This document shows, in pieces, positions 1 to 64,000 of a stretch of DNA of 64,000 bases. Under the pieces are notes generated by a model. That model was given only the letters and a program-made list of their open reading frames with translations. It did not search any database and was not told the DNA's origin. This DNA is from Thiomicrospira sp. WB1. Lineage in GTDB: Bacteria > Pseudomonadota > Gammaproteobacteria > Thiomicrospirales > Thiomicrospiraceae. The translations under genes were made by a program, and so were the position numbers. Position 1 is the stretch's first letter; each line of letters opens with the position of its first letter. The DNA lies in the NCBI RefSeq assembly GCF_001507535.1, contig NZ_LQBN01000001.1, positions 124,001-188,000 on the forward strand, given 5' to 3'.

Positions 1-479
1 GCTTTGGCGGAAATGCTGGCGGCTTCCGCCTGGTCCAATTCGGCTTGTGAAATCAGGTTTTTTTGCTGCATGTCCTGCTTTCGCCGGTAATCCGCCAGCG
101 CATTCTGGCGTTGGGCTTGGGCTTGCAAACGCTGTGCTTGCGCCTGTTCCAGAGCGGTCTGATAGGGCGCGCGTTCAATCTGAAACAGCGTCTGACCCTG
201 GACCACTTTTTCCCCTTCGTCAAACAGGCGGGCCTTTAGAAACCCTTCAATGCGTGCGCGCAGGGCGACGCTCTCGATCGGTTCCACTCGCCCCAGTAAA
301 CGATGCGTCTGGGTGGGCGAAGCGGTTTGAACGGTCATTACCGTGACCGCCGTGGTTTGACCATCGCTCGGTTCGTTCGCGCTGGCCGCGGGCCCGGCGG
401 CCCATGTCAGGGTAAAAAGGACCAGGCCTGGTAAAAAATGGACAAGGCGCATGAGGCGATCGGATAGGTTGCGGCGCAT
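1..479 (-). CDS. RND efflux periplasmic adaptor (HlyD/MexA family), 3' part outside window
   Basis: The minus-strand frame is open from an ATG at 479 to the left edge, giving 159 residues of an unfinished gene. It begins with a basic n-region and a hydrophobic stretch typical of a Sec signal peptide (about residues 1-34, ending near AAGPAAS). Next comes a membrane-fusion-protein beta-barrel/lipoyl start, with IEGFL, VVQGQTLFQIE and an A/Q-rich coiled-coil hairpin (about residues 110-150). Proteins of this family bridge an inner-membrane RND pump and an outer-membrane channel; the pump would lie to the left, outside the window. A copy of the 12-bp palindrome lies in the signal-peptide codons (LPGLV). 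The family assignment is firm and the substrate is unknown. Confidence 0.82.
   Translation of the reverse strand, partial: MRRNLSDRLMRLVHFLPGLVLFTLTWAAGPAASANEPSDGQTTAVTVMTVQTASPTQTHRLLGRVEPIESVALRARIEGFLKARLFDEGEKVVQGQTLFQIERAPYQTALEQAQAQRLQAQAQRQNALADYRRKQDMQQKNLISQAELDQAEAASISAK
421..432. repeat. Dispersed palindrome ACCAGGCCTGGT, copy 1
   Basis: Exact 12-bp copy inside the signal-peptide codons of the RND adaptor. The plus strand continues with an A-tract (TAAAAAATGG). It encodes LPGLV on the minus strand. Confidence 0.9.
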
Positions 480-618
480 GGTCTCTCCCAAGATCAGACA
501 ATCAACCTCATTGTAGGGCAGTTTGCGGGAAGAGACCAGATTCGGATGTGACTTTGTTGTCACAAGGCGGCTTCATGGCTGCGTTTCAGTGCGTTATCTG
601 GTAAAAAGAGTTGCACTG

Positions 619-1035
619 ATGCTTCATACGAGGGTGACGAGGGTGATTGGGAAAGCATTAATCATTTGGCTGGGACTGCTTGGGATCGCGATCCTCAATG
701 GCGCGCTTCGTGAGGGGGTATGGGCACCCATGCTGGGTGAGGTGGCGGCCAATCTGATCAGCGGATTGATGCTTGCGGGGCTGATTTTGGGGGTGGCGTA
801 TTATTCCCTTCCCTGGCTGGCGGTGACAAGTTTTGCGCACTATGGATGGATCGGCGCATTGTGGGGCCTTCTGACCGGGCTGTTTGAAGGGGCGATGATC
901 CATTGGCAGGGTCGGATCGAGGAGGATGCTTGGGCGGCGATGACGTTTGAGCAGGGAAATCTCTGGCCTTTGATCTGGCTGGTGACGTGCCTGGCCCCGG
1001 TGTTGGCGGCTCTAGGACGCAGACGATTCGGATAG
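619..1035 (+). CDS. Small four-helix membrane protein of unknown function
   Basis: This 138-residue protein is read from the ATG at 619; an upstream in-frame start at 523 would add 32 mostly polar residues and is less likely. It shows about four hydrophobic segments (roughly residues 11-28, 40-64, 72-90 and 115-132) with a conserved-looking NGALRE ... GE ... N-ISG pattern between helices 1 and 2. I recall similar short membrane proteins annotated only as hypothetical in proteobacteria. Its 3' end overlaps the convergent recF end by 24 bp. It sits where gyrB usually follows recF. No function can be assigned. Confidence 0.6.
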   Translation: MLHTRVTRVIGKALIIWLGLLGIAILNGALREGVWAPMLGEVAANLISGLMLAGLILGVAYYSLPWLAVTSFAHYGWIGALWGLLTGLFEGAMIHWQGRIEEDAWAAMTFEQGNLWPLIWLVTCLAPVLAALGRRRFG

Positions 1036-2124
1036 GGGGTGCAGTTGACCGTTTTCAATGCACCAGGCCTGATAGTCGGTTTGGTCGCGAGCGGTCTCGG
1101 GGATCAGATTGAGGCTGGTGGTGGTCAGCAGAGATTGAATGCCCAGCTCCTGGAGCAGAGTCAGCAGGGTCTGGCGATGATGCGCATCCAGTTCGGCCGG
1201 AAGGTCGTCGATCAACATGATCACCGTCTGGCCGCTCAGTTTTTCGTAAAGGGCGGCCTGGGCCAGCAGCAACGCGCAGACAAACAGCTTTTGCTGACCG
1301 CGGGATAAGGCCATCTGGGCGTCCATTTTATCAAAGCGAAACCGCATGTCGGCACGATGGGCACCATATTGGGTAAAGCCTTGTTTTCGATCTTTTTCCA
1401 GATGGCTTTGCAGCGCCTGGCCAAAATCGGGTTGGGCCTGAGGCCAACCGGGGCGGAAGCTGACTTGCGGCGGCGCGGACAGTTCCGGCATAAGGGCTTG
1501 GCAATAGGTTTCCAGAAAGGGCGTCAGGGCGTGGATGTAGTCATGTCGCAGACTGTGCAGGCGATCATTGGCCGCCAGCAGTTGTGCGTCCCATAACTGG
1601 ACCTGGTCGGCGGGCAGTTGTTGACGCAGGGCGCGGTTGCGTTGTTTCAGTGCGCGCTGGTAAAGACGCCAGTGTTGCATGAAATCGGTCTGAGCATGAA
1701 AGCAGCCCCAGTCCAGATAATGACGGCGTGCTTTGGGGCCTTCTTCCAGTAGGCGGTGGCTTTCCGGCGTGAGCAACTGAATGGGCAGGGTGGCGGCCAT
1801 TTCGGCCTGCGTGCGAATGGTGTCGCCGTTGATGCGCACTCGCACCTGTCCGTCCTGCTGGCGACTCAGGCCCAGACGGTGGCGCTGGGTGCCCTGTTCG
1901 ACTTCACAGAAAATCACCAGGCCTGGTTGCTGGTGCTGAATCAGTTGGCGCGGTTGGGCCGTACGGAACGAGCGGCCTGACGCCAGGGTCCACAGGGCTT
2001 CGATCACCGCGGTCTTGCCCGCTGCGTTGTCACCGGCGATCACATTGATGCCGGCGCCAAAGCTCAGATGGGCCTGATCGATGTTACGAAAGTGCTGCAG
2101 CTGGAGATTGACCAGTCGTGACAA
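1012..2124 (-). CDS. recF: DNA replication and repair protein RecF
   Basis: RecF is an SMC-like ATPase that loads RecA at single-strand gaps with RecO and RecR. The 370-residue product carries a Walker A motif GDNAAGKT near residue 31 and a Walker B/D-loop stretch LIDDLPAELD near residue 306, and the length matches the family. The start is a TTG at 2124 with a GAGG Shine-Dalgarno 8 bp upstream. No ATG gives a better N-terminus, and MSRLVNLQLQHFRN aligns with the usual RecF start. It follows dnaN by 22 bp in the same operon. Two palindrome copies fall inside it (1062, degenerate, encoding YQAW; 1916, exact, encoding QPGLV). Downstream is not gyrB, which is unusual. Confidence 0.97.
   Translation of the reverse strand: MSRLVNLQLQHFRNIDQAHLSFGAGINVIAGDNAAGKTAVIEALWTLASGRSFRTAQPRQLIQHQQPGLVIFCEVEQGTQRHRLGLSRQQDGQVRVRINGDTIRTQAEMAATLPIQLLTPESHRLLEEGPKARRHYLDWGCFHAQTDFMQHWRLYQRALKQRNRALRQQLPADQVQLWDAQLLAANDRLHSLRHDYIHALTPFLETYCQALMPELSAPPQVSFRPGWPQAQPDFGQALQSHLEKDRKQGFTQYGAHRADMRFRFDKMDAQMALSRGQQKLFVCALLLAQAALYEKLSGQTVIMLIDDLPAELDAHHRQTLLTLLQELGIQSLLTTTSLNLIPETARDQTDYQAWCIENGQLHPLSESSAS
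1062..1073. repeat. Dispersed palindrome, degenerate copy (11/12)
   Basis: ACCAGGCCTGAT within recF, encoding YQAW near the C-terminus. One base differs from the consensus palindrome. Confidence 0.6.
1916..1927. repeat. Dispersed palindrome ACCAGGCCTGGT, copy 2
   Basis: Exact copy in recF, preceded on the plus strand by AAAATC, the same left flank seen at 13030 and 47457. It encodes QPGLV on the minus strand. Confidence 0.9.
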
Positions 2125-2146
2125 GCGTGTGCCTCAGTGGGCCGAA

Positions 2147-3253
2147 CTAAAGACGCATCGGCATGATCACATGCTGACAATGGCAGCCGTCGGTTTCCAT
2201 TTCGATCATGCAACTGCTGTTGGCGTCTTTCATATGCAGGGTCACCTGTTCCTGGTGCATGGCATTGATGACATCCAGCAGATAATTGACGTTGAAACCG
2301 ATTTCCATCTCCGGCCCCTGATAATCAAGGGTCATGTCTTCGTGCGATTCATCCTGCTCCGAGTTCTGGGCGTGCACGGCGATCAAGTTGGCTTTGAGTG
2401 CCAGACGAATGCCTTTAAATTTATCATTGGACAAGATCGCGGCCCGCTGTAACAGGCTGCGCAGCAGTTCACGCTGGGCGGTGGCCAACTGATCGTTGTG
2501 TTGCGGCAGAACGCGTTTGTAATCGGGGAAACGACCATCGACCAGTTTGCAGGTAAAGACCGTGTCTTCCATCTGCACGGTCAGGTAGTTTTTGGCCAGC
2601 GCAAACGCCACCAGGGTTTCGTCGTCGCCAATGAGTTTTTGCAGTTCCATGACCCCTTTACGCGGCAGGATGGCCTGAGTCGCTGTCAGGCCTTCGGTTT
2701 CCAGCTGAGTGGAGCAGGTGGACAGTCGATGTCCGTCGGTGGCGACCACACGCAGCGTCTGATCACTGATGTCGAACAGCATGCCGTTCAGATAGAAACG
2801 AACGTCCTGATGCGCCATGGCAAAAGCGGTGTGGGCGATCAGTTGTTTGAGCTGGTGCTGTTGCAGAGAAAACGACAGTTCGGTCTGGGTCAGATCAATC
2901 GTCGGGAAATCCTCGGCCGGCAGCGTGGAGAGTTTAAAGCGCGAGCGTCCGGCCGAAAGCTGGCAACGGGTTTGTTCGAAGTCAAGGGTGACCAGCACGC
3001 CATCGGGCAGAGAGCGCACAATGCTGATCAGTTTCATCGCCGGCAGTGTGGTCTGGAAATCGCCATCACTGGTTTCGATCTCGGTGGTGGCACGGGTTTC
3101 GATTTCCAGGTCAGACGCGGTGACGGTGAGTGTGTTCTGGGTGATCTGGAACAGAAGGTTGGCCAGCACCGGCATTGTCTGGCGTTTTTCGACCACGCCG
3201 CCGACGGTTTGCAACGCTGAAAGTAAATTTTCGCGGGACAGGGAGAATTTCAT
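2147..3253 (-). CDS. dnaN: DNA polymerase III beta sliding clamp
   Basis: The beta clamp encircles DNA and tethers polymerase III; the family has three similar domains and about 366 residues, and this product has 368. The start is the ATG at 3253 with AAAGG about 10 bp upstream. An in-frame TTG two codons earlier is not needed, because MKFSLSRE matches the family N-terminus. Recognisable signatures include ATDGHRLS in the middle domain and the C-terminal VIMPMRL, which closes the protein as in other clamps. It lies between dnaA and recF, the standard dnaA-dnaN-recF order. Confidence 0.97.
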   Translation of the reverse strand: MKFSLSRENLLSALQTVGGVVEKRQTMPVLANLLFQITQNTLTVTASDLEIETRATTEIETSDGDFQTTLPAMKLISIVRSLPDGVLVTLDFEQTRCQLSAGRSRFKLSTLPAEDFPTIDLTQTELSFSLQQHQLKQLIAHTAFAMAHQDVRFYLNGMLFDISDQTLRVVATDGHRLSTCSTQLETEGLTATQAILPRKGVMELQKLIGDDETLVAFALAKNYLTVQMEDTVFTCKLVDGRFPDYKRVLPQHNDQLATAQRELLRSLLQRAAILSNDKFKGIRLALKANLIAVHAQNSEQDESHEDMTLDYQGPEMEIGFNVNYLLDVINAMHQEQVTLHMKDANSSCMIEMETDGCHCQHVIMPMRL

Positions 3254-3363
3254 GAGCAATACCTTTGTGCAGTTTGGGTCACAATGTTATTCGCCATTAT
3301 GCCAAGAATTCGGAATGGCTTCTACAGACCTTTTGTGAATTTTTAACGACCGCTGATTGACGC

Positions 3364-4824
3364 TTAGTTGGTGATGATTCGGATCAATGTCTGCCAGTCT
3401 TCGCCCAGCTGATGGTCGGTTTCGGTCAATTCTTTGATCTTTTTGATCGCATGCAGAACCGTGGTGTGATCACGTCCGCCGAAGGCATCGCCGATTTCCG
3501 GCAAGCTGTGCTGGGTCAGTTCTTTGGCAATGGCCATCGCCATCTGGCGGGGCCGGGCGATGTTGCGCGTGCGGCGCTTGGATAAAATGTCCGCCACCCG
3601 GATTTTGTAATAGTCGGCCACGGTTTTTTGAATGTTTTCCAGTGTGACCATTTTCTGTTGTAGTGCCAGCAGATCCTTGAGGGCCTCTTTCGCCAGGCTG
3701 ACGGTGATGGCCTGCTGGGTAAACTGGGCAAAGGCGCCCACCCGTTTCAGTGCCCCTTCCAGGTCACGGACATTGCCACGCAAGCGTTTGGCGATGAAAA
3801 ACGCCACATCGTCGGACAGCAGAAAGCCAAATTCGTGGGCTTTTTTCAGCAGAATGGCCACACGCATTTCAAATTCCGGCGGTTCAACCGCCACCGTCAG
3901 GCCCCAGCCGAAACGCGATTTCAAGCGGTCTTCCAGCCCTTCGACTTCTTTGGGAAAACGGTCACTGGTCAAAATGACCTGCTTGTTGCCTTCGAGCAGG
4001 GTGTTAAAGGTATGAAAGAACTCTTCCTGCGATTGTTCTTTGTTGGCAAAAAATTGAATGTCATCGATCAATAAGGCGTCCAAAGAGCGGTAAAAACGTT
4101 TGAATGACTCGATTTTTTTATGGCGCAGGGCATTGACCATGTCCGCCACGAAACGTTCCGAGTGAAGGTACACCACCCGAGCCTGAGGGTTGCGTTTCAT
4201 TAAGAGGTTGCCGATGGCATGCATCAAGTGGGTTTTCCCCAGACCGGAGCCGCCATAAATGAAAAACGGGTTGTAACCGCCACCCGGGTTGTCCGCCACC
4301 TGGTGTGCGGCCGCGGCGGCAAGCTGGTTGGCCTTGCCTTCGACAAAGGTTTCAAACGTAAAGTGTGTGTTGAGATTGTGCTTGATCCCGGACGGTTCCT
4401 GGCTGGCTTCGTCGGGATTGGACCGTTCCTGATAGGTGGCCTGTTGAGAGGAGGTTGCTGAGGTGTCTGAATCAGCCGGTCGGTGTGAAAAATCCGCCAG
4501 AGGGCCGGTTGCCTGCTGGGCATGCGGACGCGTGGGGTCGACCTCCTCAATCCGGTCAATGGCGTAATCGCCAATTTCCAGAGAGACCCTTGGCGTATTG
4601 GCCGGTGCCACCTGTTGCACGGCTTGCTCGATTTGATCGATGAGTTTGTCATTGACCCAGTCATAGATGAACCCTGAGGGCGCAATCAGTCGCAGCGTCT
4701 GGTCGGATTCAATGGCTTCCAGCGGACGTATCCAGGTCAAAAACTGGACATTGCTTAATCCGGATTCCAGATGTTTCAGTGCTTGGGGCCACAAAACCGT
4801 GCTCAAAAGGTCACCTCGGTTCAT
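3364..4824 (-). CDS. dnaA: Chromosomal replication initiator DnaA
   Basis: DnaA binds 9-bp DnaA boxes in oriC, opens the duplex and helps load DnaB. The protein shows domain I ([13 protein letters not shown]), a polar S/T/Q/P-rich linker, and an AAA+ core with Walker [14 protein letters not shown] and Walker [10 protein letters not shown]. It ends with the domain IV DNA-binding signature [16 protein letters not shown] prefer the ATG at 4824 (486 residues) because domain I then begins at once, as in relatives. An ATG at 4884 would add 20 residues (506 in all). Neither start has a clear Shine-Dalgarno. The upstream DnaA boxes suggest autoregulation. Confidence 0.97.
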
Positions 4825-4973
4825 ATCAGTAAGGGGTGGATCAACTTCGCCAGAGGCCGGTCCGATTGCATTTTCTGGGCACATTTTGCATGGCCATTGC
4901 CCGTGACAGGCCTGATGGGTCGCTGGCGAAAAGGAATTATACGACTGAAGCCGGTGTCCGCCTAGAGGGGGGT

Positions 4974-4982
4974 TGTGGATAA
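4974..4982 (-). promoter_or_regulatory. DnaA box 1
   Basis: TGTGGATAA on the plus strand is the exact complement of the TTATCCACA consensus. Confidence 0.8.
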
Positions 4983-4997
4983 GTTGGGGACAAAGTC

Positions 4998-5006
4998 TGT
5001 GGATAA
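4998..5006 (-). promoter_or_regulatory. DnaA box 2
   Basis: Second exact TGTGGATAA, in the same orientation and 24 bp from box 1. Confidence 0.8.
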
Positions 5007-5179
5007 GGTTGGTTAGGTTGGAAGTAACTGTTTGAATTGATGAGGTTCTTTACACAAATTAAAATTCTTTCATAAAAAAAGTTCATGGGGGCCTTTGTCT
5101 GATTTGCGCAGGCGCTTGTAGGACCAGGACCGAGGCCAGGATCAGGTAGCTGATCCGTCAATTCGCTTCGCCGCGGCCA

Positions 5180-5974
5180 TCACAGCCAAAACATTTTGAT
5201 GGCAAGCACAATCAGCAGCAACGCAAACACCCGTTTGAGGGTCTTTACCGGCAGGCGATGTGTCAGCGTGGCCCCGACCGGCGCGGTAAAAAAGCTGGCT
5301 GCCACGATACCCAAAAACGCCGGCCAGTAAATATAACCGGTCGACCCGTCGGGTAAGCCGGTGGTTTGAAAGCCGCTGAACATGAATCCCAAAGTACCCG
5401 CTGCGGCAATGGGCAAGCTCAAAGCGGAGGACGTGGCAATGGCCTGGGGCATGCGCACGTTGTGCCACATCATATAAGGCGTATTCAATGCGCCGCCGCC
5501 AATGCCGACCAGGGACGAGAGGCTGCCAATGACCGTGCCCGCACTGAAGCGACCCACGGCCCCTGGCATGTCACGGTGCGGGTCGGGTTGCAGGTCGAGC
5601 AATAACTTCAAGGCAATGGCGACTTCGATCAGGGCAAACACCTTCGCCAGCAGGGAGGCATTCATAAAATGCGCCAGCCAGCCGCCGAGCAGGCCGCCCA
5701 GGAAAATGCCGGGCGCCAGCGTGCGAAACAGGTCCCAGCGGACCGCTTCGTGCTGTTGATGTTTGCGCACCGATGCGGCAGAGGTGATGAAAATGGTGGC
5801 CAAAGAGGTGCCGATGGCCAGATGAACCACATAAGGGGTGTCGAGGAACCAGACAAAAGCGGAGGTGAGAATCGGCACGATGATTAAACCGCCGCCAATG
5901 CCCAGCAAGCCGGCAAAAAAACCAGCCACCACTCCAGTGAGCACATACACACTTAGCTCAATCAACCACTCCAT
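5180..5974 (-). CDS. TSUP (TauE/SafE) family membrane permease
   Basis: The 264-residue integral membrane protein has about eight hydrophobic segments in two related halves. Each half carries the family's glycine-rich motif (GLLGIGGGLIIVP near residue 22 and GIGGGALNTPYM near residue 155). Members export or import sulfite, sulfonates, sulfoacetate or other organic anions; the substrate cannot be read from sequence. It lies alone between oriC and the MGMT gene, in a position that separates dnaA from rpmH. The start is the ATG at 5974 (MEWLIELS). Confidence 0.85.
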   Translation of the reverse strand: MEWLIELSVYVLTGVVAGFFAGLLGIGGGLIIVPILTSAFVWFLDTPYVVHLAIGTSLATIFITSAASVRKHQQHEAVRWDLFRTLAPGIFLGGLLGGWLAHFMNASLLAKVFALIEVAIALKLLLDLQPDPHRDMPGAVGRFSAGTVIGSLSSLVGIGGGALNTPYMMWHNVRMPQAIATSSALSLPIAAAGTLGFMFSGFQTTGLPDGSTGYIYWPAFLGIVAASFFTAPVGATLTHRLPVKTLKRVFALLLIVLAIKMFWL

Positions 5975-6334: not shown

Positions 6335-6634
6335 ATGGACTGGGCACAGCGGGTTTACGCATTGGTTCGCCAAGTGCCGCAAGGCAAGGTGACCACGTAT
6401 AAAGCGTTGGCGGAGGCGCTTGGTTGTCAAGCCTACCAAGCGGTCGGACAGGCTTTGCACCGAAATCCGACGCCGGACACTGTGCCCTGTCACCGCGTGG
6501 TCAAAACGGACGGTGCTTTGGGCGGCTATGCCTGGGGTGTGGCGCAAAAGCGAGCGTTGCTGGCAGCGGAGGGCATCGTGTTCGAGACACCGGATCGGGT
6601 GGATCTCGAACAATGTTTTTACCAGGCCTGGTGA
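6335..6634 (+). CDS. Single-domain MGMT-family DNA alkyltransferase-like protein
   Basis: The 99-residue protein corresponds to the DNA-binding/active-site domain of O6-alkylguanine-DNA alkyltransferases (PF01035). It has GKVTTYKALAEALG, the helix-turn-helix region, and the acceptor-cysteine motif VPCHRVV at about residues 53-59. Because the cysteine is kept, it may be a minimal alkyltransferase. Alkyltransferase-like (ATL) proteins of similar size have Trp there and only flag lesions for excision repair. The start is the ATG at 6335 behind AGGAGA; a TTG at 6317 is in frame but unnecessary. The final codons YQAW and stop lie in a copy of the dispersed palindrome. Confidence 0.85.
   Translation: MDWAQRVYALVRQVPQGKVTTYKALAEALGCQAYQAVGQALHRNPTPDTVPCHRVVKTDGALGGYAWGVAQKRALLAAEGIVFETPDRVDLEQCFYQAW
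6621..6632. repeat. Dispersed palindrome ACCAGGCCTGGT, copy 3
   Basis: Exact copy overlapping the stop codon of the MGMT gene (encodes YQAW then TGA). The A-tract is on the minus strand (GGTAAAAAC). Confidence 0.9.
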
Positions 6635-9594: not shown

Positions 9595-10986
9595 ATGACT
9601 GATCCGTTGTTGTCCGCGCACAGCGAAACCATCGTTGCGCTGGCCACGCCACCGGGTCGGGGCGGCGTTGGGATTGTGCGTGTGTCAGGCCCCAAGAGCC
9701 GGGCCATCGCCGAGGCCATGCTGGGCACCTGTCCGGCCCCACGTTATGCGCATTACGGCCCTTTTTACGGCGAAGACGGGGCAGTGCTGGATGAAGGCAT
9801 TGCCCTGTTTTTCAAGGGGCCGCATTCGTTCACTGGCGAAGACGTGGTCGAATTTCAGGGCCACGGTGGCCCGGTGGTGATGCAGTGGTTGCTCAACCGT
9901 GCCGTGGCGCTGGGCGCGCGACTGGCTGAGCCGGGTGAATTTTCTCAACAGGCGTTTCTCAATGACAAGTTGGATCTGGCTCAGGCCGAAGCCATTGCCG
10001 ATTTGATTGAAGCCAGCTCCGACCAGGCTGCGCGTTCAGCACTGCGTTCGCTTCAGGGGGCCTTCTCCGACGAAATCCATGCCCTGGTGGAAGCGCTGAT
10101 CGCTCTGCGGATTTATGTGGAAGCGGCGATTGACTTTCCCGATGAGGAAATCGACTTTCTCAGCGACGGTAAGGTGGCGGCTGACTTGGACGCGATTGCC
10201 CAGCAGCTCGACAGCGTGCTGGCCCGTTCGCGCCAGGGGGCCATGCTGCGCGACGGTTTGTCTGTGGTGATTCTGGGGCGGCCCAATGCGGGCAAATCCA
10301 GTTTGCTCAATGCCCTGTCAGGCCGCGAATCGGCGATTGTGACCGACATTGCCGGAACCACCCGCGACATTGTGAAAGAAGAAATTGTCATCGATGGATT
10401 GCCCTTGCATGTGCTGGATACCGCCGGTTTGCGCGAGGCCACTGATGCGGTGGAAAAAATCGGCATCGAGCGTGCCTGGGCCGCGCTGGATCAAGCCGAT
10501 CACGTGTTGGTGATGGTGCAGGCGGGGGAGAGCATGGACGAATCTGACCGCCGCATCCTTGACCGCCTGCCGGAGGGTATTCCTGTGACCCTGATTCACA
10601 ATAAAATCGATCTGATTGAAAAAACACCAGGCCTGGTCAAAAATGACGCCGCGGAGCAGGCAAAAAGCGGGGTGGAAACCCAGATTTGGCTGTCGGCCAA
10701 ACACGGCGCCGGGCTGGGCCTGCTGACCCGGCATCTGAAAGAGCGCATGGGATTGGTGCAAACCGGGGAAGGCGTGGTCATGGCCCGCGAACGCCACATT
10801 CAGGCGCTGGAAGTGGCGCAGCAATTCGTGGCGTCGGGAGCGGTGCAGTTGCATGAGTTTGCCGCCGGTGAGCTGCTGGCGGAAGATCTGCGTCAGGCCC
10901 AACAGGCACTGTCGTCGATCACCGGCGAATTCACCTCCGACGATCTGCTGGGTCGGATTTTTTCATCCTTCTGTATCGGGAAATAG
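9595..10986 (+). CDS. mnmE: tRNA uridine-5-carboxymethylaminomethyl modification GTPase MnmE
   Basis: MnmE works with MnmG to modify U34 of certain tRNAs. The 463-residue protein has the tetrahydrofolate-binding N-domain and an inserted G domain (G1 GRPNAGKSS near residue 228, G3 DTAGLR, G4 NKID). It keeps the C-terminal CIGK with the conserved cysteine. The start is the ATG at 9595, 31 bp after the terminator. An exact palindrome plus A-tract (10626) encodes TPGLVKN about residue 344, just after G4, in a loop likely to tolerate insertion. Confidence 0.98.
10626..10637. repeat. Dispersed palindrome ACCAGGCCTGGT, copy 4 (full 17-mer)
   Basis: Exact copy followed by CAAAA on the plus strand, in mnmE, encoding TPGLVK. 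Confidence 0.92.
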
Positions 10987-11168: not shown

Positions 11169-12142
11169 AACAGGCCAAACCGTCCGAGTTGAGCGTGCCA
11201 GACCGCCTGAAGCTGGAAAAAACCGGGATCAAACTGGTGATGATCGGGGATGCCCTGATGGCGATTCTCGGGTTTGTGTTCTTTTATGCCACCTATTCCC
11301 ATGCCATTCTGATGGACGCGGTCTATCCGTTCATTGATCTGGTGGCGGCGCTGTTGACCTTGCGGGTGGTGTCGCTGTTTGCCCGCCAGACGCGCCAGCC
11401 GGATTCGAGTCATCACCTCATGGGCTATGCCGTGTTTGAGCCGGTGCTCAACTTCATCAAGGGCATCCTGATTTTGGGGGTGATTCTGGTTGCCTTTTAT
11501 ATGTCGGTTAAGGCTCTGTTTACCGGCGGGCGAATGATCGATGCGCACACGGCGGTGTTTTATTCGGTGTTGGCCTCCCTGATTAATTTCGGTCTGGCCT
11601 GGTATCTGCACCGTTTGAATCGCCACGCTCAGTCATCACTGATTGATGTGGACCTGAAGGGCTGGCTGATTGGGGGCTGGCTGTCGATTGCGGTGGGACT
11701 GTCGTTTGCGCTGGCGATCTGGCTGGAGCAGTTGGGTTGGTACAGTTGGCTGCCCTACACGGATCCGGTGGTGGTGGTGATTCTGATTCTGGTCATTCTG
11801 CCGATGCCATTGAAAATCCTCAAGGATAACGGCTTGCAGATTGTGCGTCGCAGCGGCAACAGTGAGAAAGGGCGCCTGCTGAAGCAGCGCATTGTCAGCG
11901 CACTGAGCGGGCTGGCCGATCAGGCGGGGCAACCGGTGACGCCACAAGACGTGAAAATGCGTTATCTGCAGATGGGGCGCATGGTGTATGTGCAGGCGTA
12001 TGTGTTGCTGCCCGCGCAGACCGACGTGACGCTGAGTCAGCAGGATGCGGCCCGCGCCCGGGTGTATCAGGCGTTGGCCCGGGAATTGGATTATTTTTCA
12101 CTGGATGTGGTGTTTACCCAGCAAAGCGAGTGGCTGGCCTAG
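11165..12142 (+). CDS. Cation diffusion facilitator (CDF) family transporter
   Basis: CDF proteins export divalent metals in exchange for protons. The 325-residue protein has six hydrophobic segments and a cytoplasmic C-terminal domain (from about residue 235). The metal-site acidic pairs appear as DAVYPFID in helix 2 and DVDLKG in helix 5, an unusual variant lacking the common HxxxD form, so the metal is uncertain. The start is a TTG at 11165 with GGAG about 9 bp upstream, overlapping the preceding stop. It precedes the RND pair by 43 bp. Confidence 0.75.
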   Translation: MKQAKPSELSVPDRLKLEKTGIKLVMIGDALMAILGFVFFYATYSHAILMDAVYPFIDLVAALLTLRVVSLFARQTRQPDSSHHLMGYAVFEPVLNFIKGILILGVILVAFYMSVKALFTGGRMIDAHTAVFYSVLASLINFGLAWYLHRLNRHAQSSLIDVDLKGWLIGGWLSIAVGLSFALAIWLEQLGWYSWLPYTDPVVVVILILVILPMPLKILKDNGLQIVRRSGNSEKGRLLKQRIVSALSGLADQAGQPVTPQDVKMRYLQMGRMVYVQAYVLLPAQTDVTLSQQDAARARVYQALARELDYFSLDVVFTQQSEWLA

Positions 12143-12185
12143 CGTTCTTGTCAGATCGGCTCGCGCTCGGAACAAAGGAGTCACA

Positions 12186-13349
12186 ATGGATCATCAACGA
12201 CAGGAAGCAGCGATGAGGCCAATCCGTTGGCGCCCGGTGCATCTGATGGGCTGGCTTTTGGCTGGGTTGATGGGTGGCCTGAGCGGCTGTACGCCTGCGG
12301 ATTCGGATGCGGCCTCACAAGCCGAGCCGCCGCCGGTGGTGCAGGCGTTTGCACTTGAGCGGGCTCCCCTGCCGGGCCGAACCCTGCAGGGCACGATTGA
12401 GCCGCGCTTTGCCAGTGCACTGAGTTTTCGCGTCGGCGGTAAGCTGATCGAGCGCGGGGTGGACGTGGGGGACCGACGTGAGCCGGGGGCGGTGCTGATG
12501 CGGCTTGACCCCACTGACTATCAGCTGACACGGGATACCTTGCAGGCGGACATGCAGGCGACCCGTTCTGAAATCGTCAATGCCCGTGCCGAACTGGCCC
12601 GTCTGCAGCGCCTCTTTCAAAAGAATCTGACTTCGGAGCAATCGCTGGATCAGGCAAAAAATCACCTCAATGTCCTCAACGCCCGCTTGAAAGCGCAACA
12701 GCGCCAGGCGGCTCAAACCCAGCATCAGATTGATTACACTTCTTTACGTGTGCCCGAGGCCTTGGCGGGGCCGGTTGAGATCACGAGTCTTTTGGCGGAA
12801 AAAGGCGAGGTCGTTCGTGCCGGCCAACCGGTGCTGCGTCTGGCCAGTGTGCAGCCCACCGAGGTCAAGGTGGCACTGCCTCGGTCTATGCGAGCCAACC
12901 CCCCCGCGCAACTGGCGCTCTCTTTGGCGTCAGCCTCGTTTTCGCTTTCCCTGAAACGTATGGGCGATCAAGCCGACGCTCAGAGCCGGACCTGGCCCGC
13001 CTGGTATGGTCTGGCCGATCACCAAAATCACCAGGCCTGGTTAAAACAGGCCCATTGGGGCGAGACGGTGACCTTGTCAGAAGCGGACACGCCCAGCGCT
13101 TGGCGCGTGCCCGTGAGTGCGGTGTTGCGACGCGGGTCGGGTGCCACAGTGTGGCGCCTGCTCGCCGATGAGACCGTTGATACCGGGTATCGTTTGGTGG
13201 CGTTACCCGTCACAGTGGTGTCAATCAATCATCAATGGGCCTGGATTGAGACGCCCTCTGATGCTGATCTGATGGCGGGGGATGAGTTGGTGGCGTTCGG
13301 GGCGCATCGACTCCATGCCGGACAAACGGTACGGAGGCTGGCGCCTTGA
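12186..13349 (+). CDS. RND efflux periplasmic adaptor lipoprotein
   Basis: The 387-residue membrane-fusion protein links the RND pump encoded next to an outer-membrane channel. The N-terminus ends in a lipobox (LSGC, Cys about residue 37), and coiled-coil helices occupy roughly residues 120-180. A lipoyl half-motif (GEVVRAGQPVLRL) follows. The start is the ATG at 12186 directly after AAAGGAG; longer upstream frames are spurious. Its stop overlaps the pump's TTG start. An exact palindrome at 13030 encodes HQAWLK at about residue 283. Confidence 0.9.
   Translation: MDHQRQEAAMRPIRWRPVHLMGWLLAGLMGGLSGCTPADSDAASQAEPPPVVQAFALERAPLPGRTLQGTIEPRFASALSFRVGGKLIERGVDVGDRREPGAVLMRLDPTDYQLTRDTLQADMQATRSEIVNARAELARLQRLFQKNLTSEQSLDQAKNHLNVLNARLKAQQRQAAQTQHQIDYTSLRVPEALAGPVEITSLLAEKGEVVRAGQPVLRLASVQPTEVKVALPRSMRANPPAQLALSLASASFSLSLKRMGDQADAQSRTWPAWYGLADHQNHQAWLKQAHWGETVTLSEADTPSAWRVPVSAVLRRGSGATVWRLLADETVDTGYRLVALPVTVVSINHQWAWIETPSDADLMAGDELVAFGAHRLHAGQTVRRLAP
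13030..13041. repeat. Dispersed palindrome ACCAGGCCTGGT, copy 5
   Basis: Exact copy in the RND adaptor, flanked by AAAATC on the left and TAAAA on the right. Encodes HQAWLK. Confidence 0.9.
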
Positions 13350-17055: not shown

Positions 17056-17067
17056 ACCAGGCCTGGT
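17056..17067. repeat. Dispersed palindrome ACCAGGCCTGGT, copy 6 (intergenic)
   Basis: Exact copy 5 bp after the IMPACT gene stop, extended to a 14-bp perfect palindrome (CACCAGGCCTGGTG). It lies outside coding sequence. Confidence 0.9.
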
Positions 17068-20527: not shown

Positions 20528-20534
20528 TTGAGGG

Positions 20535-21068
20535 TCATTCCACCTTCTGAATGGCGGCAGTAAACCCTTTTAGTGAGACATTGATCACCAATGGCTTTTT
20601 CTGGTTGAAGGGGCGAAAGGCGACTTTGGCGGTGTTGCCTGCTTTCATGGCGCCAAGCAAGGCGGCATCGAGTTTGTGAATGCCCAGACAGCCGTCCTGC
20701 AGACAGGTTAAAAAAGGAATCTGATATTCCTTGCCTTCATCGACCTTGAGCAGCAAGCCGCTGGCGACGTTGACCCCGAGAGGCGTGATCAGTTGCAGTC
20801 CCAGATTGCCCTGGGCGTCCTGACTGACGGTCACTTGCAGCATGCGCATGGCGCCCTGTTGTGTTTTGCGCTGCAGCGTCTGTTGCGCCTGGCAACGAGT
20901 CTGTCCGTTTTGCTGCACACAGACTTCCAGCCAGTCGCCATGCTGCTGACTCTGCGGCGGGTTGCCTTGATTTCCAGCGTTTGAAGCTGGCAGTGGGTTT
21001 TGTGACCAGGCAGGATGAACCAACATCAGTCCCAGTGAAAACAGCAGGGGGTGAAGCAATCGAGTCAT
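20535..21068 (-). CDS. Invasion-associated locus B (IalB)-like periplasmic protein
   Basis: The 177-residue protein has a Sec signal peptide (about residues 1-23, cleavage near AWS-Q). The body matches the IalB pattern: W-E-V-C followed by a second cysteine, a central G-rich beta segment, and the paired motif FLTCLQDGCLG near residue 121. The family is widespread in bacteria; its function outside Bartonella is unknown. The start is the ATG at 21068 with GGAG 8 bp upstream. It converges on lctP with a 7-bp gap. Confidence 0.75.
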   Translation of the reverse strand: MTRLLHPLLFSLGLMLVHPAWSQNPLPASNAGNQGNPPQSQQHGDWLEVCVQQNGQTRCQAQQTLQRKTQQGAMRMLQVTVSQDAQGNLGLQLITPLGVNVASGLLLKVDEGKEYQIPFLTCLQDGCLGIHKLDAALLGAMKAGNTAKVAFRPFNQKKPLVINVSLKGFTAAIQKVE

Positions 21069-21128
21069 AACAAGTCTCCGCAAGGTCTCAAAACTTTATT
21101 CTAGCTGATGGCAACCGGGCCTGGCCAA

Positions 21129-21323: not shown

Positions 21324-21342
21324 GGTTAAGGCCTCCGAATGT

Positions 21343-21348
21343 TATAAT
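21343..21348 (+). promoter_or_regulatory. queF extended -10 promoter element
   Basis: TGTTATAAT gives a TGn-TATAAT extended -10, 34 bp before the queF ATG. Confidence 0.5.
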
Positions 21349-33184: not shown

Positions 33185-33328
33185 AAAGGGTATGGTTGCA
33201 ACCTGTTTCAGCTCGGTTACACTTTTTCTCAGATTCTACGGGGATGCCCGGCACTTGTCATGCATTCCCGGTGATTCCATCCAAATCGATTGAACAGAGT
33301 TGGAACCAACCAATCAAAGGGGACGTCT

Positions 33329-47390: not shown

Positions 47391-48046
47391 TGACTGAGAC
47401 GCAGGCTCAGTCCGCTTTGCAGGCGGCGTTCGCAGAACTGGGGCTGGCTGAAAATCACCAGGCCTGGTCAAAACTGGTTCAGTATTGGCAATTGTTGCAA
47501 AAGTGGAACCAAGCGATTAATCTTACCGCCATTCGGGACCCGCATGAGATGTTGATCAAACACCTGTTTGATAGCTTGAGCGTGGCGCCGGTGATGACTT
47601 GGAATCGCTTGCTGGATGTGGGAACGGGCGCCGGTTTTCCGGGGCTGGTGCTGGCCATTTTGGCGCCGGAAAAATCCGTGGCTCTGATTGACAGCAACAG
47701 CAAAAAAACCCGTTTTTTGATGCAAGCCGTTCATGCGCTGCAACTGACGAATGTTGAGGTGGTGCACGAGCGGGTGGAAGCCCATCGTCCGGCTGTGCCT
47801 TACGATGCGATCGTCTCACGCGCCTTTGCCTCCCTGTCGGATTTTTTGACGTTGACCCGGCATCTGCTCAGTGAAGACGGTTACTGGTGGGCGATGAAAG
47901 CCCAGCAGGCCGAAGCCGAGCTGGCGCAACTGCCGGCCTTTGCGCGGTTGATCCGGTGCCACCCTTTGCAGGTCCCGCAATTGTCAGCGCAACGCCGTGT
48001 GATTCAGCTGGCACCGATCCATTCCAATGAGAAGGAGCAGGCATGA
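47390..48046 (+). CDS. rsmG: 16S rRNA (guanine527-N7)-methyltransferase RsmG (GidB)
   Basis: RsmG methylates G527 of 16S rRNA. The 218-residue protein has KWNQAINLTAIRDPHEM, the SAM motif LLDVGTGAGFPGLVLAI (about residue 72) and SRAFASLSDFL. The ATG overlaps the mnmG stop by one base. An exact palindrome plus A-tract lies at residues 22-27 (HQAWSK), close to the N-terminus where the family varies. Confidence 0.97.
   Translation: MTETQAQSALQAAFAELGLAENHQAWSKLVQYWQLLQKWNQAINLTAIRDPHEMLIKHLFDSLSVAPVMTWNRLLDVGTGAGFPGLVLAILAPEKSVALIDSNSKKTRFLMQAVHALQLTNVEVVHERVEAHRPAVPYDAIVSRAFASLSDFLTLTRHLLSEDGYWWAMKAQQAEAELAQLPAFARLIRCHPLQVPQLSAQRRVIQLAPIHSNEKEQA
47457..47468. repeat. Dispersed palindrome ACCAGGCCTGGT, copy 10 (full 17-mer)
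   Basis: Exact copy in rsmG, preceded by GAAAATC and followed by CAAAA. Encodes HQAWSK. Confidence 0.92.
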
Positions 48047-49705: not shown

Positions 49706-49723
49706 ATGACCAGGCCTGGTCAT
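49706..49723. repeat. Dispersed palindrome, copy 11, extended to 18 bp (intergenic)
   Basis: ATGACCAGGCCTGGTCAT is a perfect 18-bp palindrome in the parB-atp gap, with the 12-bp core at 49709-49720 and A-rich flanks on both sides. It is the longest perfect version in the window and is non-coding. Confidence 0.92.
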
Positions 49724-57350: not shown

Positions 57351-58733
57351 ATGGCATTAAAAGTCATTATTTTAGCCGCTGGCAAGGGGACGCGCATGCG
57401 CTCGCGGCTGCCCAAGGTGCTGCAATCGCTGGCGGGTCGACCGTTGCTGGCGCATGTGGTGGATCGGGCGCACGCGATCCATGCCGACGAAATCGTGACG
57501 GTGATTGGCCATGGTAGCGATCAGGTCCGTCAGACATTTGAAACCGCGGGGGTGAGATTCTGTGAGCAATCAGAGCAGCTCGGTACCGGTCACGCGGTCC
57601 AACAAGCGGTGGATCACCTGGATGATGCCGATACAGTGCTGGTGCTTTACGGAGATGTCCCTTTGACGGCGCCCGAAACGCTTAAGGATTTGATTTCACT
57701 GGTCGGTTCGGCCCATCCTTTGGCCTTGCTCAGCATGACCCTGGAAGAACCCGATGGTTACGGTCGCATTGTCCGCAATGCGCATCATCAGGTGGAAGCC
57801 ATTGTTGAGCAAAAAGATGCATCGACAGAGCAACTGGCGATTCGGGAAATCAATACCGGTATGTTGGCCGCCAGAGGCGCAGAACTTAAAAAATGGCTAG
57901 GGGCACTGGATGCGGACAATGCACAGGGCGAATATTATTTGACCGACATTGTGAGCATGGCCGTGGCCGATGGGTTTGAGATCGCAACCACCGAACCGGA
58001 GCGTTTAAGTGAGGTGTTGGGCGTGAATAATAAGTCCCAACTGCAAACATTGGAGCGGCTTTATCAGCGTGAGCAGGCCGAGCGTTTGATGGCACAAGGT
58101 GTGACGTTGTCGGACGCGTCACGCCTGGACATCCGGGGCCAACTTGAGGTGGGGCAGGATGTGTCACTGGATGCCAATGTCGTCATCGAAGGCGCGGTTC
58201 ATTTGGGTGATGAGGTGGTGGTGGAGCCCCATTGTGTGCTCAAAGATTGCCGGATTGAAGCGGGCACGCGCATTGCCGCATTCAGTCATATCGAGGGCGC
58301 CAGCGTGGGGCCGGACTGTACGGTTGGCCCTTATGCGCGATTGCGTCCCGGAACAGTGTTGCAACAGGGCGCAAAGATCGGCAATTTTGTGGAAACCAAA
58401 AACGCCCGGATTGGTGATGGGTCCAAGATCAATCATCTGTCTTATATCGGCGACACGACGATGGGCGCTCATGTGAACATCGGTGCGGGCACCATTACCT
58501 GTAATTACGATGGGGTGAACAAGCATCGCACCGACATCGGTGATGAGGTGTTTGTGGGCTCAGCGACACAGCTGGTGGCGCCGGTCAAAGTGGGGTCAGG
58601 GGCGACCATCGGTGCGGGATCGACCATTACCAAAGATGTACCGGGTGACACCCTGACGCTTTCGCGTAGCCGACAGACCAGTCTGAAAAGCTGGCAAGGT
58701 CCACAAAAGAAGGACATTGATCCGCAAACCTAA
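57351..58733 (+). CDS. glmU: Bifunctional GlmU (glucosamine-1-P acetyltransferase / UDP-GlcNAc pyrophosphorylase)
   Basis: GlmU makes UDP-GlcNAc for peptidoglycan and LPS. The 460-residue protein has the uridyltransferase motif LAAGKGTRMRSRLPKVL at the N-terminus. A left-handed beta-helix with hexapeptide repeats starts near residue 250, with VETKNARIGDGSKINHLSYIGD and the acetyl-CoA region at its end. It is next to atp, as in E. coli, with its own terminator-promoter break. The TAA overlaps a palindrome copy. Confidence 0.98.
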   Translation: MALKVIILAAGKGTRMRSRLPKVLQSLAGRPLLAHVVDRAHAIHADEIVTVIGHGSDQVRQTFETAGVRFCEQSEQLGTGHAVQQAVDHLDDADTVLVLYGDVPLTAPETLKDLISLVGSAHPLALLSMTLEEPDGYGRIVRNAHHQVEAIVEQKDASTEQLAIREINTGMLAARGAELKKWLGALDADNAQGEYYLTDIVSMAVADGFEIATTEPERLSEVLGVNNKSQLQTLERLYQREQAERLMAQGVTLSDASRLDIRGQLEVGQDVSLDANVVIEGAVHLGDEVVVEPHCVLKDCRIEAGTRIAAFSHIEGASVGPDCTVGPYARLRPGTVLQQGAKIGNFVETKNARIGDGSKINHLSYIGDTTMGAHVNIGAGTITCNYDGVNKHRTDIGDEVFVGSATQLVAPVKVGSGATIGAGSTITKDVPGDTLTLSRSRQTSLKSWQGPQKKDIDPQT

Positions 58734-58744
58734 CCAGGCCTGGT
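58733..58744. repeat. Dispersed palindrome ACCAGGCCTGGT, copy 12 (full 17-mer, intergenic)
   Basis: Exact copy followed by CAAAA. Its first base is the last base of the glmU stop codon. It is otherwise intergenic, so coding constraint does not explain it. Confidence 0.93.
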
Positions 58745-61502: not shown

Positions 61503-61503
61503 G

Positions 61504-62031
61504 TCACAGGCGCGCCGCAAGGGTGTCGGTCAGCACTTCGGTTAACAGCAAGGGCGTACCTGCATTGGAAAATAAGGACTGACGTGCAAAAGCGTTGGAG
61601 TGAACCCGTGCCAATTGAAAATCGGAACGGATCAGATTCGGGGTGTTGAACAGCACCTCACCCAGGGGTTGGTTGCCCAGTTGTTTCAGTGAATACCAGG
61701 GATTGCCGGGCCCTAAGTCGGGAATGACTGTGCGAGCATAAACCCAGGTTTGACCGTGGCAGTGCAACCGCACGGTGCGCACCCAGCAACGACGCATCGG
61801 AGCCCGTTGCAGTGCCCTTGCTTCCTGTCGGGTCGGACGTTGTTCCCCTTCGTCCATCACGGCCACGCTCAGGTTTGGACAAAGGCGACGCAAATTCTGC
61901 GTCAGTGAGCCGCGGTCGATCAGCCAGGGGCGCAGGGAATCAGGCGGGGCGACTCGCTGGATCAGACGCTCGGGTTGCCAGCTTGCCTGTGCCAGCGTCT
62001 GACGCAGGGATTGTACGGTCAAGTCAGGCAT
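61504..62031 (-). CDS. ubiC: Chorismate lyase (chorismate-pyruvate lyase)
   Basis: UbiC makes 4-hydroxybenzoate, the substrate of UbiA. The 175-residue protein has WVYARTVIP (active-site Arg, about residue 98), LGNQPLGEVLF and a C-terminal LLLTEVL with the conserved Glu. The start is the ATG at 62031, overlapping the recG stop by 8 bp; a GTG at 62052 is possible. It converges on the unknown exported protein gene by 1 bp. Confidence 0.85.
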   Translation of the reverse strand: MPDLTVQSLRQTLAQASWQPERLIQRVAPPDSLRPWLIDRGSLTQNLRRLCPNLSVAVMDEGEQRPTRQEARALQRAPMRRCWVRTVRLHCHGQTWVYARTVIPDLGPGNPWYSLKQLGNQPLGEVLFNTPNLIRSDFQLARVHSNAFARQSLFSNAGTPLLLTEVLTDTLAARL

Positions 62032-64000
62032 GCTGGTATCCCATTTTTTCACCCAGCCAGCGTTGGTGTAAACAGTCTGCTTCGTCAGGCATTTGGTTGA
62101 GGAGTGTCATGGCTGCTTCGCGGGCCTGATTTAACCAGGCCTGGTCCCGTTCCAGGTCGGCAATGCGAAACTGCAGGCCGCCGGTTTGTCGGGTGCCGAG
62201 AATCTCGCCCGGACCTCGCAGTTTTAAGTCCTCTTCGGCGATCACAAAGCCATCATTGGTTTCGCGCATGATGTTGAGGCGAGCCTTACCGGTCTCTGAC
62301 AGGGGCGGTTTGTATAAAAGCACACAGTGGCTTTTTTTGGCGCCTCGTCCCACCCGTCCGCGTAGTTGATGCAATTGCGCCAGTCCCAGTCGTTCCGCAT
62401 TCTCGATGATCATCAGGCTCGCATTGGGTACATTGACGCCGACTTCAATGACGGTGGTGGCCACCAGCAGGTCCAGTTGATGGGCTTGAAATGCCGCCAT
62501 GACCTGCGCCTTTTCTTCGCCTTTCATACGGCCATGAATCAGTCCCAGACGTAAATCTGGCCAGTGCTGTTGAAACTGTTCGGCGGTGACTTCGGCGGCC
62601 TGTGCGTCCAATTGATCGGATTCTTCGATCAGAGGGCAGACCCAGTAAGCCTGAACGCCCTGCTCACACTGAGTGACCAGGTGCGCCATGACGTCTTCGC
62701 GTTTGCTTTGATTGAGCACCGCTGTGTCCACGGGCTGGCGTCCGGGAGGCAACTGGTCAATGACGGATAAGTCCAGGTCGCCGTAGGCACTCATCGCCAG
62801 TGTACGTGGGATGGGCGTGGCGGTCATGATCAATTGATGCGGATGCGTTTCGCCGTCCAGCCCTTTGTCATGCAAGGCCAGACGCTGATGCACCCCAAAC
62901 CGATGCTGTTCGTCAATGATGACCAGTCCCAGCCGGTCAAACCTCACTTCCTTCTGGAAAAGGGCATGGGTGCCGACCACAATTTTGGCATCACCCTGTT
63001 CGATCCGCGCCAATTGATGACGTTTTTCAGCCGATTTCAACCGGCCATTGAGCCATGCCAGTTCCAATTTCAGCGGTTCCAGCCATTCAGCAAAGTGGTT
63101 GCGGTGCTGCTCGGCGAGGATCTCAGTTGGGGCCATGACCGCCACCTGAAACCCGGCCTCGGCGGCTTGAATGGCGGCCATGGCAGCGACGATGGTTTTG
63201 CCGGAGCCGACATCCCCCTGAACCAGTCGTTGCATTGGGTGCGGACGTTTCAGATCTTCGGCAATGGCGGCCCAGACGCGTTGTTGCGCCCCGGTCAGCT
63301 CGAATGGAAGCGAGGCGAGCAGCTGATTCACTCGCTGACTGGCACCGATTGGCGGGGCAAAACGGGTTTGCTCCTGCTGACGTAACCATTGCATACTGAG
63401 CTGATGGGTCAGGAGTTCTTCAAAAATCAAACGCGCTTGAGCCGGGTGAGTGAAGGCTTTCAGGGCGGCCAGGTCGTCATGTGGTTGCGGCTGATGCAAA
63501 GTGGTCAGCGCCTGGTTGATGGGGGGGAGCTGCCATTGGCTGAGCAAGCTCTTTGGCAGCCCTTCGTCTAACGGGTATTGCTGCAGCAGCGCCATGGCCT
63601 GCTTGATCAGTTTGAGCAGCGTTGCCTGTCCCAGCCCTTCGGTGGAAGGGTAAACCGGGGTCAGTGTGGTTTCCAGCGGTGGCCGGTTGTCTGGCGCAAA
63701 AAGTCGGTAGGCAGGGTGGACCATTTCCAGCCCTTTGGGGCCGCCTCGGACTTCCCCAAAGGCGCGGATGTGGCTGCCACGTTTGAATTGCTGAGCCTGT
63801 CGAAAGCCAAAATGAAAAAAACGCAGCGTCAGACGCCCGCCGTCGGCGCCGATCACGCTGACCAGAAGACTGCTGTTGCGGCTTTGGGTCAGGTGCTGGG
63901 AGACGATTTCGCCTTCAATCTGGGTTTCCTGGCCCGGCACTAATTCACAGACCGGCTGGAGTCTTGTTTTGTCCTGGTAGCGTAAAGGCAGATGAAACAG
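62024..64000 (-). CDS. recG: ATP-dependent DNA helicase RecG, 5' part outside window
   Basis: RecG reverses stalled forks and branch-migrates Holliday junctions. The frame is open to the right edge, so the N-terminus lies outside. The residues at the edge (LFHLPLRYQDKTRL) match the start of the RecG wedge-domain region. Visible motifs include Walker A GDVGSGKT, DEQH in IIDEQHRFGVHQRL, the RecG TATPIPRTL, and motif VI QLRGRVGRG. An exact palindrome at 62134 encodes DQAWLN near the C-terminus. The overlap with ubiC gives a recG-ubiC pair. Confidence 0.97.
   Translation of the reverse strand: MFHLPLRYQDKTRLQPVCELVPGQETQIEGEIVSQHLTQSRNSSLLVSVIGADGGRLTLRFFHFGFRQAQQFKRGSHIRAFGEVRGGPKGLEMVHPAYRLFAPDNRPPLETTLTPVYPSTEGLGQATLLKLIKQAMALLQQYPLDEGLPKSLLSQWQLPPINQALTTLHQPQPHDDLAALKAFTHPAQARLIFEELLTHQLSMQWLRQQEQTRFAPPIGASQRVNQLLASLPFELTGAQQRVWAAIAEDLKRPHPMQRLVQGDVGSGKTIVAAMAAIQAAEAGFQVAVMAPTEILAEQHRNHFAEWLEPLKLELAWLNGRLKSAEKRHQLARIEQGDAKIVVGTHALFQKEVRFDRLGLVIIDEQHRFGVHQRLALHDKGLDGETHPHQLIMTATPIPRTLAMSAYGDLDLSVIDQLPPGRQPVDTAVLNQSKREDVMAHLVTQCEQGVQAYWVCPLIEESDQLDAQAAEVTAEQFQQHWPDLRLGLIHGRMKGEEKAQVMAAFQAHQLDLLVATTVIEVGVNVPNASLMIIENAERLGLAQLHQLRGRVGRGAKKSHCVLLYKPPLSETGKARLNIMRETNDGFVIAEEDLKLRGPGEILGTRQTGGLQFRIADLERDQAWLNQAREAAMTLLNQMPDEADCLHQRWLGEKMGYQHA
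62134..62145. repeat. Dispersed palindrome ACCAGGCCTGGT, copy 13
   Basis: Exact copy in recG; the minus strand continues TAAAT. Encodes DQAWLN. Confidence 0.9.

Follow-up and report, generated by a model that had tools for sequence, protein, structure and literature searches.

The Neisseriaceae and the Pasteurellaceae are called, in the accessible part of PMC12616744, the only families known to carry uptake sequences, namely the DNA uptake sequence (DUS) and the uptake signal sequence (USS), respectively. A further system of dispersed words, the highly iterated palindrome 1 (HIP1) of cyanobacteria, is treated in PMC4390886. Here we describe a palindromic 12-mer that recurs throughout the genome of Thiomicrospira sp. 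WB1 (2,279,450 bases in six contigs) and that was noticed in a 64,000-nucleotide stretch of contig C1 (C1:124001-188000, hereafter the window). From comparisons of sequence, we consider it likely that bacteria of the Hydrogenovibrio family use this motif as their uptake signal in natural transformation.

Results

A palindromic 12-mer is over-represented throughout the genome

The exact 12-mer is present in 400 copies across the 2.28-Mb genome, and the reversed control word is present in none. Within the window, 22 sites match with no more than two mismatches when 2.77 are expected, and none of 100 shuffles reaches this number. All 13 exact copies that had been reported in the initial annotation of the window were located, and five of these were confirmed as exact 17-mers that extend into CAAAA. 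Inexact copies do exist as claimed, although they number nine (three with one change and six with two) rather than about six. The mention of several copies followed by TAAAA proved overstated, as this extension is carried only by the exact copy at 13030 and by the variant at 28927.

When all 12-mers with at least six occurrences were ranked in a 464-kb sample of the genome made up of the window and 20 further stretches, the highest z score belonged to this word, with 158 occurrences on both strands compared with 0.379 expected from an order-4 Markov model. Within 503 called open reading frames (ORFs; 579 kb), 66 copies were found, compared with a mean of 4.2 and a maximum of 8 among 30 synonymous-codon shuffles. 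Thus, the suspected over-representation holds against both Markov and codon-aware backgrounds, and the copies are not confined to the window. In 640 kb of the genome, exact copies (112) predominate over changed forms: copies with one change number 34 against 7 expected, those with two number 55 against 73, and those with three number 347 against 473. Two other words are also repeated in the 464-kb sample, namely CTTAGGTTCCGG (7 occurrences on both strands versus 0.009 expected) and GGTTCTGGTTCT (15 versus 0.058).

The element is a two-fold symmetric core flanked by A/T runs

An examination of the 112 sites in 640 kb reveals that the element is two-fold symmetric, with the palindromic core ACCAGGCCTGGT and an A/T run on one or both sides. 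At least one run is present at 111 of the sites versus 38% of random positions, and runs on both sides are present at 79 versus 5% of random positions. By the classes of their flanks, 37 sites are polar, 42 are mirror-symmetric, 32 are one-sided, and one has no run; by our arithmetic, these polar and symmetric counts are near those given by independence of the two sides (about 39 and 42). With the A-rich side oriented to the right, the runs lie at about -6 to -2 and +14 to +17 of the core (79 sites). The A-tract that was originally noted beside the palindrome is a genuine part of the element, but its side and polarity are not fixed, since it occurs on either side and in either polarity.

An element of this build, with a two-fold symmetric core and A/T runs on either side, would suit a dimeric binding protein. 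The main rival to an uptake function is that the copies are sites for a cytoplasmic DNA-binding protein involved in the nucleoid, chromosome organization, or segregation, with species-specific forms resulting from co-evolution of protein and site. That the stretches sampled from contigs C1 to C4 contain copies, some of them next to the dnaA-like region, also fits this explanation, to which we return below.

Copies are enriched outside ORFs: although 66 of the 112 sites lie within called ORFs, 46 lie in the 10% of the DNA that a greedy ORF caller leaves outside (ORFs, 90%). A single reading frame, xAC CAG GCC TGG Txx, is common to 45 of the 66 intra-ORF sites. Uptake words show a reading-frame preference according to the accessible part of PMC2346458, and the present motif likewise has one.

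The flanks AAAACC/GGTTTT occur at nine of the 112 sites, and the palindrome is extended by at least five bases on each side at 13, which suggests that a minority could act in transcription terminators. These same sites favor the idea that the word is in general a dispersed hairpin, mainly a terminator or a repeat like the repetitive extragenic palindrome (REP). However, REP-type repeats are expected mostly outside genes, and most of the sites are within called ORFs. Moreover, two forms of the word in related species (see below) are imperfect palindromes. We give this explanation hardly any credence.

Related species carry four dialects of the word

In an initial comparison of WB1 with 36 relatives (37 genomes in all), enrichment of the exact 12-mer is limited to part of the WB1 family, with zero or one copy in each of 15 genomes from other families. 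A scan of genomic contigs with a 23-base version, from which records near the WB1 genome were possibly excluded, matched four stretches of Hydrogenovibrio halophilus DSM 15072, a member of the same genus as WB1, one stretch of a Piscirickettsiaceae metagenome-assembled genome, and nothing else. The family, whose name in GTDB we take to be Thiomicrospiraceae, was then represented by 62 genomes; a set drawn at the level of the order gave the same 62, all of one family. NCBI taxonomy places Hydrogenovibrio in the Piscirickettsiaceae, Thiotrichales. The comparison with relatives that had been suggested for the window shows one of four dialects to be enriched in 35 of the 62 family genomes.

The first dialect, with the 10-mer core CCAGGCCTGG, is present in 106 to 856 copies in 27 genomes (7 of 11 in group g1, 9 of 9 in g6, 1 of 1 in g4, and 10 of 32 in g3). 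The second, CCAGGTTGGG, has 400 copies in genome G001 and 364 in G010, with no more than seven in the other 60. The third, CCAGGCTGGG, has 326 copies in G004 and no more than 11 in the other 61. The fourth, RCAGGCCTGTT, yields 180 to 409 matches in five g3 genomes (G021, G044, G054, G062, and G066), as summed over both strands such that the fully palindromic AACAGGCCTGTT is counted twice. The first three dialects are mutually exclusive, the fourth overlaps weakly with the first, and by inspection CAGG is common to all four. None of the four is enriched in the remaining 27 genomes, which may carry other words that escaped the search; stretches of 20 to 117 kb from G012, G018, G045, G047, G049, and G051 hold no comparable word. 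The samples from G011 and G020 were 10 kb each, and G007 was hardly readable.

The second and third dialects are polar and have the form AAAATCTRCCAGGYTGGG, which consists of AAAATCT followed by G or A and by CCAGGTTGGG or CCAGGCTGGG. Each position of the A run is 91 to 100% conserved (27 sites in G001, 22 in G010, and 30 in G004), making these words strict 18-mers. Both strands are used nearly evenly in G010 (166/198) and G001 (195/205); for the palindrome itself, such a comparison has no meaning. In a tree of 13 genomes constructed from MnmG and four ATP-synthase proteins (names assigned by reading), G004 joins G001 and G010 in one clade with support of 100 among genomes carrying the palindrome, with several deeper nodes weak (35-63). 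This nested position suggests that the palindromic form is probably older than the polar form. In a separate observation, several 12-mers reach 26 to 28 copies in G004 C1:1-60000, probably reflecting a clustered repeat array.

A word that exists in hundreds of copies and is polar in three genomes might be a signal for recombination or chromosome translocation, similar to Chi or to the FtsK-orienting polar sequences (KOPS). Such signals would be skewed by replichore, yet no skew is seen: of all forward copies, the first 1.0 Mb holds 64 of 166 in G010 (67 expected if even) and 64 of 142 in G004 (58 expected), as tallied by hand with mnmG near 2.45 Mb and 2.28 Mb, respectively, and the one-sided sites of WB1 are distributed 27 to 18 beside the dnaA-like region. 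This makes a Chi- or KOPS-like role scarcely plausible.

The dialects also bear on whether the word is a HIP1-like palindrome arising via methylation-directed repair, or a methylase or restriction target (Dcm-like CCWGG, GGCC, or AGGCCT). The core is palindromic (the WB1 word being CCAGGCCTGG), 25 of the 34 one-change copies in the 640-kb sample carry the change at the outer two positions, as in the HIP1 bias of PMC4390886, and alternate HIPs are known in cyanobacteria according to the accessible part of that source. However, the HIP1 model described there predicts that the inner methylase words are themselves enriched, whereas CCAGG, GGCC, and AGGCCT outside the motif have observed-to-expected (O/E) ratios of 0.38 to 1.11 in six motif-bearing genomes. 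This argues against a HIP1 origin, in an analysis where methylase genes were not searched. Furthermore, by inspection no methylase word is common to all dialects (CCAGGTTGGG lacks GGCC, and RCAGGCCTGTT lacks CCWGG), and the CCAGGTTGGG and CCAGGCTGGG dialects are non-palindromic with a strict A-tract. We therefore view a methylation-based origin as very unlikely. In the polar clade (G001, G010, and G004), GGCC (O/E 0.38-0.57) and GATC (0.53-0.58) are under-represented, perhaps due to restriction avoidance.

Dialects replace one another at aligned sites

BLAST comparisons of scattered stretches gave few aligned sites, and the syntenic origin region mnmG-rsmG-par-atp-glmU (names assigned by reading) was used instead for comparison with 12 other genomes. 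Sites within 12 bases of each other were considered to be in the same place, and only sites alignable by BLAST entered the pairwise counts. The exact and one-change copies in the window are as follows, with the recF-, mnmE-, rsmG-, glmU-, and recG-like gene names again given by reading.

421-432: exact 12-mer outside called ORFs, AAAAAA to the right
1062-1073: one-change copy, ACCAGGCCTGAT
1916-1927: exact 12-mer within the recF-like ORF 1012-2124 (minus strand), AAAATC to the left
6621-6632: exact 12-mer, TTTTT to the left, within a called 162-aa ORF that is possibly spurious
10626-10637: exact 12-mer plus CAAAA, within the mnmE-like ORF 9595-10986 (plus strand)
13030-13041: exact 12-mer, AAAATC to the left and TAAAA to the right, within ORF 12045-13349 (plus strand)
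17056-17067: exact 12-mer between ORFs; the same site in G005 (H. halophilus) is AAAAACC-core-GGTTTTT, which is terminator-like
19720-19731: exact 12-mer plus CAAAA, within ORF 18842-20527 (plus strand), kept in place in G005
28927-28938: one-change copy, AGCAGGCCTGGT; G005 has an exact copy at the same place
33796-33807: exact 12-mer within ORF 33290-34114 (plus strand), kept in place in G005
37912-37923: exact 12-mer plus CAAAA, within ORF 35829-38117 (plus strand), kept in place in G005
43544-43555: one-change copy, ACCAGGCCTGTT
47457-47468: exact 12-mer, AAAATC to the left and CAAAA to the right, within the rsmG-like ORF 47357-48046 (plus strand); eight of 12 other genomes have their local dialect here
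49709-49720: exact 12-mer between ORFs, kept in place in G005
58733-58744: exact 12-mer plus CAAAA at the 3' end of the glmU-like ORF 57351-58733 (plus strand); corresponding dialect sites in 7 of 12 other genomes
62134-62145: exact 12-mer within the recG-like ORF 62024-63940 (minus strand), kept in place in G005

At the rsmG-like site, the eight genomes that carry their local dialect are G005, G009, G002, G008, and G013 plus the polar G001, G010, and G004; G072 has a near variant, and the place is without such a site in G018, G021, and G041. At the end of the glmU-like gene, where correspondence was judged by sequence and by spacing (about 11.2 kb from the rsmG-like site), the seven are G009, G002, G001, G010, G004, G008, and G013. 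The copy in G005 lies about 90 bases from the expected place and is unaligned.

Pairwise tallies give the same picture. Of the 13 window sites, six are unaligned with G005 and all seven aligned sites are kept; in the reverse direction, 7 of 11 aligned sites are kept (17 G005 sites). Between dialects, the other dialect is found at 4 of 4 aligned sites from G004 (six sites) to G001, at 4 of 5 from G004 to G010, and at 2 of 2 from G008 (four sites) to each of G010 and G004. The background identity of equal-length words in these pairs is 9 to 14%. At aligned sites of this region, words have thus often been switched in place between species. The replacement of dialects in place at many sites requires a reader that drifts and pulls all sites along with it, although a drifting cytoplasmic protein could equally drive such a process.

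The consecutive recF-, dnaN-, and dnaA-like ORFs (by reading) at 1012-4884 suggest that the replication origin is probably near this part of the window.

An 83-kb stretch of the genome lacks the word

The stretch C1:209,050-292,353 of the WB1 genome (83 kb) contains no copies where 14.6 are expected, and a gap of this length anywhere would have a chance of about 2e-4 if copies were placed randomly. Its G+C content is 44 to 50% in 10-kb windows, compared with mostly 51 to 60% elsewhere in C1:124-534 kb; low G+C content is not sufficient to bar copies, as C1:314-334 kb (48-49%) has three. By reading, the stretch holds a type II secretion cluster, export genes, and polysaccharide genes. Its GspE-like ATPase has like-scoring counterparts in G008, G013, G018, G021, and G072, and none was found in G005, G001, G010, or G004. 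The stretch is probably an acquired island, and it is the single motif-free stretch by which the rarity of the word in acquired DNA was judged.

If a cytoplasmic protein used such sites, they should serve it in acquired DNA as well, but this island has none. The fact that 27 of the 62 family genomes lack all four dialects, together with the motif-free stretch, argues somewhat against such a protein, and the strict 18-mers of the polar dialects also fit it poorly. In our view, a cytoplasmic binding protein is an unlikely basis for the motif.

Viral contigs with the palindromic pattern number seven and those with the polar 18-mer number five, with one match listed per contig; we draw no conclusion from these counts. 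Viral contig 2788499856 (range 1119-5403) has six CCAGGCCTGG copies within 1.6 kb, five of them spaced 210 to 285 bases apart.

Competence machinery is widespread in the family

Machinery was scored as ComEC plus ATPases of the T2SSE family. ComEC is encoded by 56 of the 62 family genomes, comprising 34 of the 35 enriched genomes and 22 of the 27 in which no dialect was found. All ten genomes tested have three to five T2SSE-family ATPases each that are PilB/PilT-like by score and length, and all ten have prepilins. In the polar G001, G010, and G004, there are only three prepilins each (E 0.05), in a single cluster. Long, Cys-rich pilins with an LPCPDT-GDG-like sequence are present in the sampled clusters of nine of the ten genomes (not in the stretches from G072, whose pilins were partly sampled). 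The pilin cluster lies at C1:838-846 kb in WB1 and at C8:194-198 kb in G001. These Cys-rich proteins are candidate receptors by virtue of their position only. For ten proteins from the clusters of G000 and G001, the only Pfam matches are to the N-terminal motif or, weakly, to a pseudopilin family.

GspH/FimT (PF12019) was considered as a receptor and rejected, as its matches are confined to three of the 62 genomes (G012, G018, and G061), each of them motif-poor. The GspH/FimT protein of G018 is among four N_methyl pilin matches near the top-scoring GspE-like ATPase, which suggests a type II secretion pseudopilin that is uninformative on uptake.

Discussion

The initial annotation had offered DNA uptake, a nucleoid or segregation protein, and a methylase target as candidate explanations. 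The dialects, their switching, and the island favor uptake among these, and the methylase target is disfavored. Within our proposal, the function in uptake, the receptor, and the drive are inferred. DNA bearing the local dialect would be bound at the cell surface by a receptor, which is probably a minor pilin of type IV. The bound DNA would then enter through the pilus machinery and ComEC and recombine with the chromosome, and biased uptake, acting as a molecular drive, would spread and keep the motif in permissive core-genome sites. In one clade of the genus, the element would have turned polar, as AAAATCTRCCAGGYTGGG.

We lean slightly toward a broader version of this proposal, wherein the motif represents a third independently evolved uptake-sequence family, carried by chemolithoautotrophic Gammaproteobacteria. 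Its two-fold symmetric site would be read by a dimeric or two-armed receptor, and the switch to a polar 18-mer in one Hydrogenovibrio clade would have occurred by in-place replacement of hundreds of sites.

Several observations weigh against an uptake function. DUS and USS, as given in the accessible part of PMC12616744, are not palindromic. This objection, which was raised when the motif was first noted, is softened by the sister species that carry the polar AAAATCTRCCAGGYTGGG, although the known DUS and USS are still non-palindromic. The fourth dialect is not cleanly separate, as its five genomes also hold 15 to 44 copies of CCAGGCCTGG and several CCAGGCCTGG genomes hold 13 to 71 RCAGGCCTGTT matches. 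The polar word of G004 shows a mild strand inequality (142 to 184, p 0.023). The in-place counts are small, overlap between pairs, and come from one region. One interior copy of the polar 18-mer lies in the 39-kb viral contig 637000325 (range 19196-21344), a number that we take to belong to a Thiomicrospira genome. Motif and machinery hardly co-vary, because most unenriched genomes have ComEC, and G018, which lacks the motif, possesses both the ATPases and pilins of the same kind. Finally, a search of the pilin clusters of ten genomes for a receptor of the motif identified none, and a structure model of the Cys-rich pilin was unusable (mean predicted local distance difference test score of 49.9).

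The 12-mer was not found in the accessible literature; as the genome paper of T. crunogena and the majority of subscription papers lie outside it, absence of the word from print is unproven. Accessible reports likewise contain no pairing of "uptake sequence" with Thiomicrorhabdus or Piscirickettsiaceae, and those pairing Hydrogenovibrio with "natural transformation" are unrelated as judged by title only. Thiomicrospira does not appear in the accessible part of PMC3497702.

If the proposal is correct, then a third case, in bacteria that we take to be free-living sulfur oxidizers, would uncouple the trait from an animal-associated life. Four dialects, a switch between palindromic and polar forms, and motif-less relatives within one family would also provide a natural series for examining how uptake words change over hundreds of sites and for identifying the protein that reads them.

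Comparison with known systems

Like HIP1 of cyanobacteria, the motif is an over-represented palindrome whose single changes fall mainly at outer positions and which is replaced by other words in some species. It differs from HIP1 in that its inner words are not enriched alone, two of its dialects are polar, and the A/T runs belong to the element. Its features suggest that it behaves like DUS and USS, of which class it is a putative member. With DUS of the Neisseriaceae, which is bound by the receptor ComP, it shares copy numbers of at least hundreds, restriction to a family, dialects with a conserved inner core, occasional placement in terminators, and absence from an island. In contrast to DUS, whose inner core is CTG according to the accessible part of PMC12616744, the core found here, ACCAGGCCTGGT, differs in sequence and forms a palindrome with A/T runs beside it. 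With USS of the Pasteurellaceae, for which ComN/PpdA is the proposed receptor, the motif shares a short core with nearby A/T-rich tracts, gammaproteobacterial hosts, and dialects. The inner core of USS is GCGG, unlike that of the present motif, whose A/T runs lie on either side rather than just downstream and whose core is palindromic in most enriched species.

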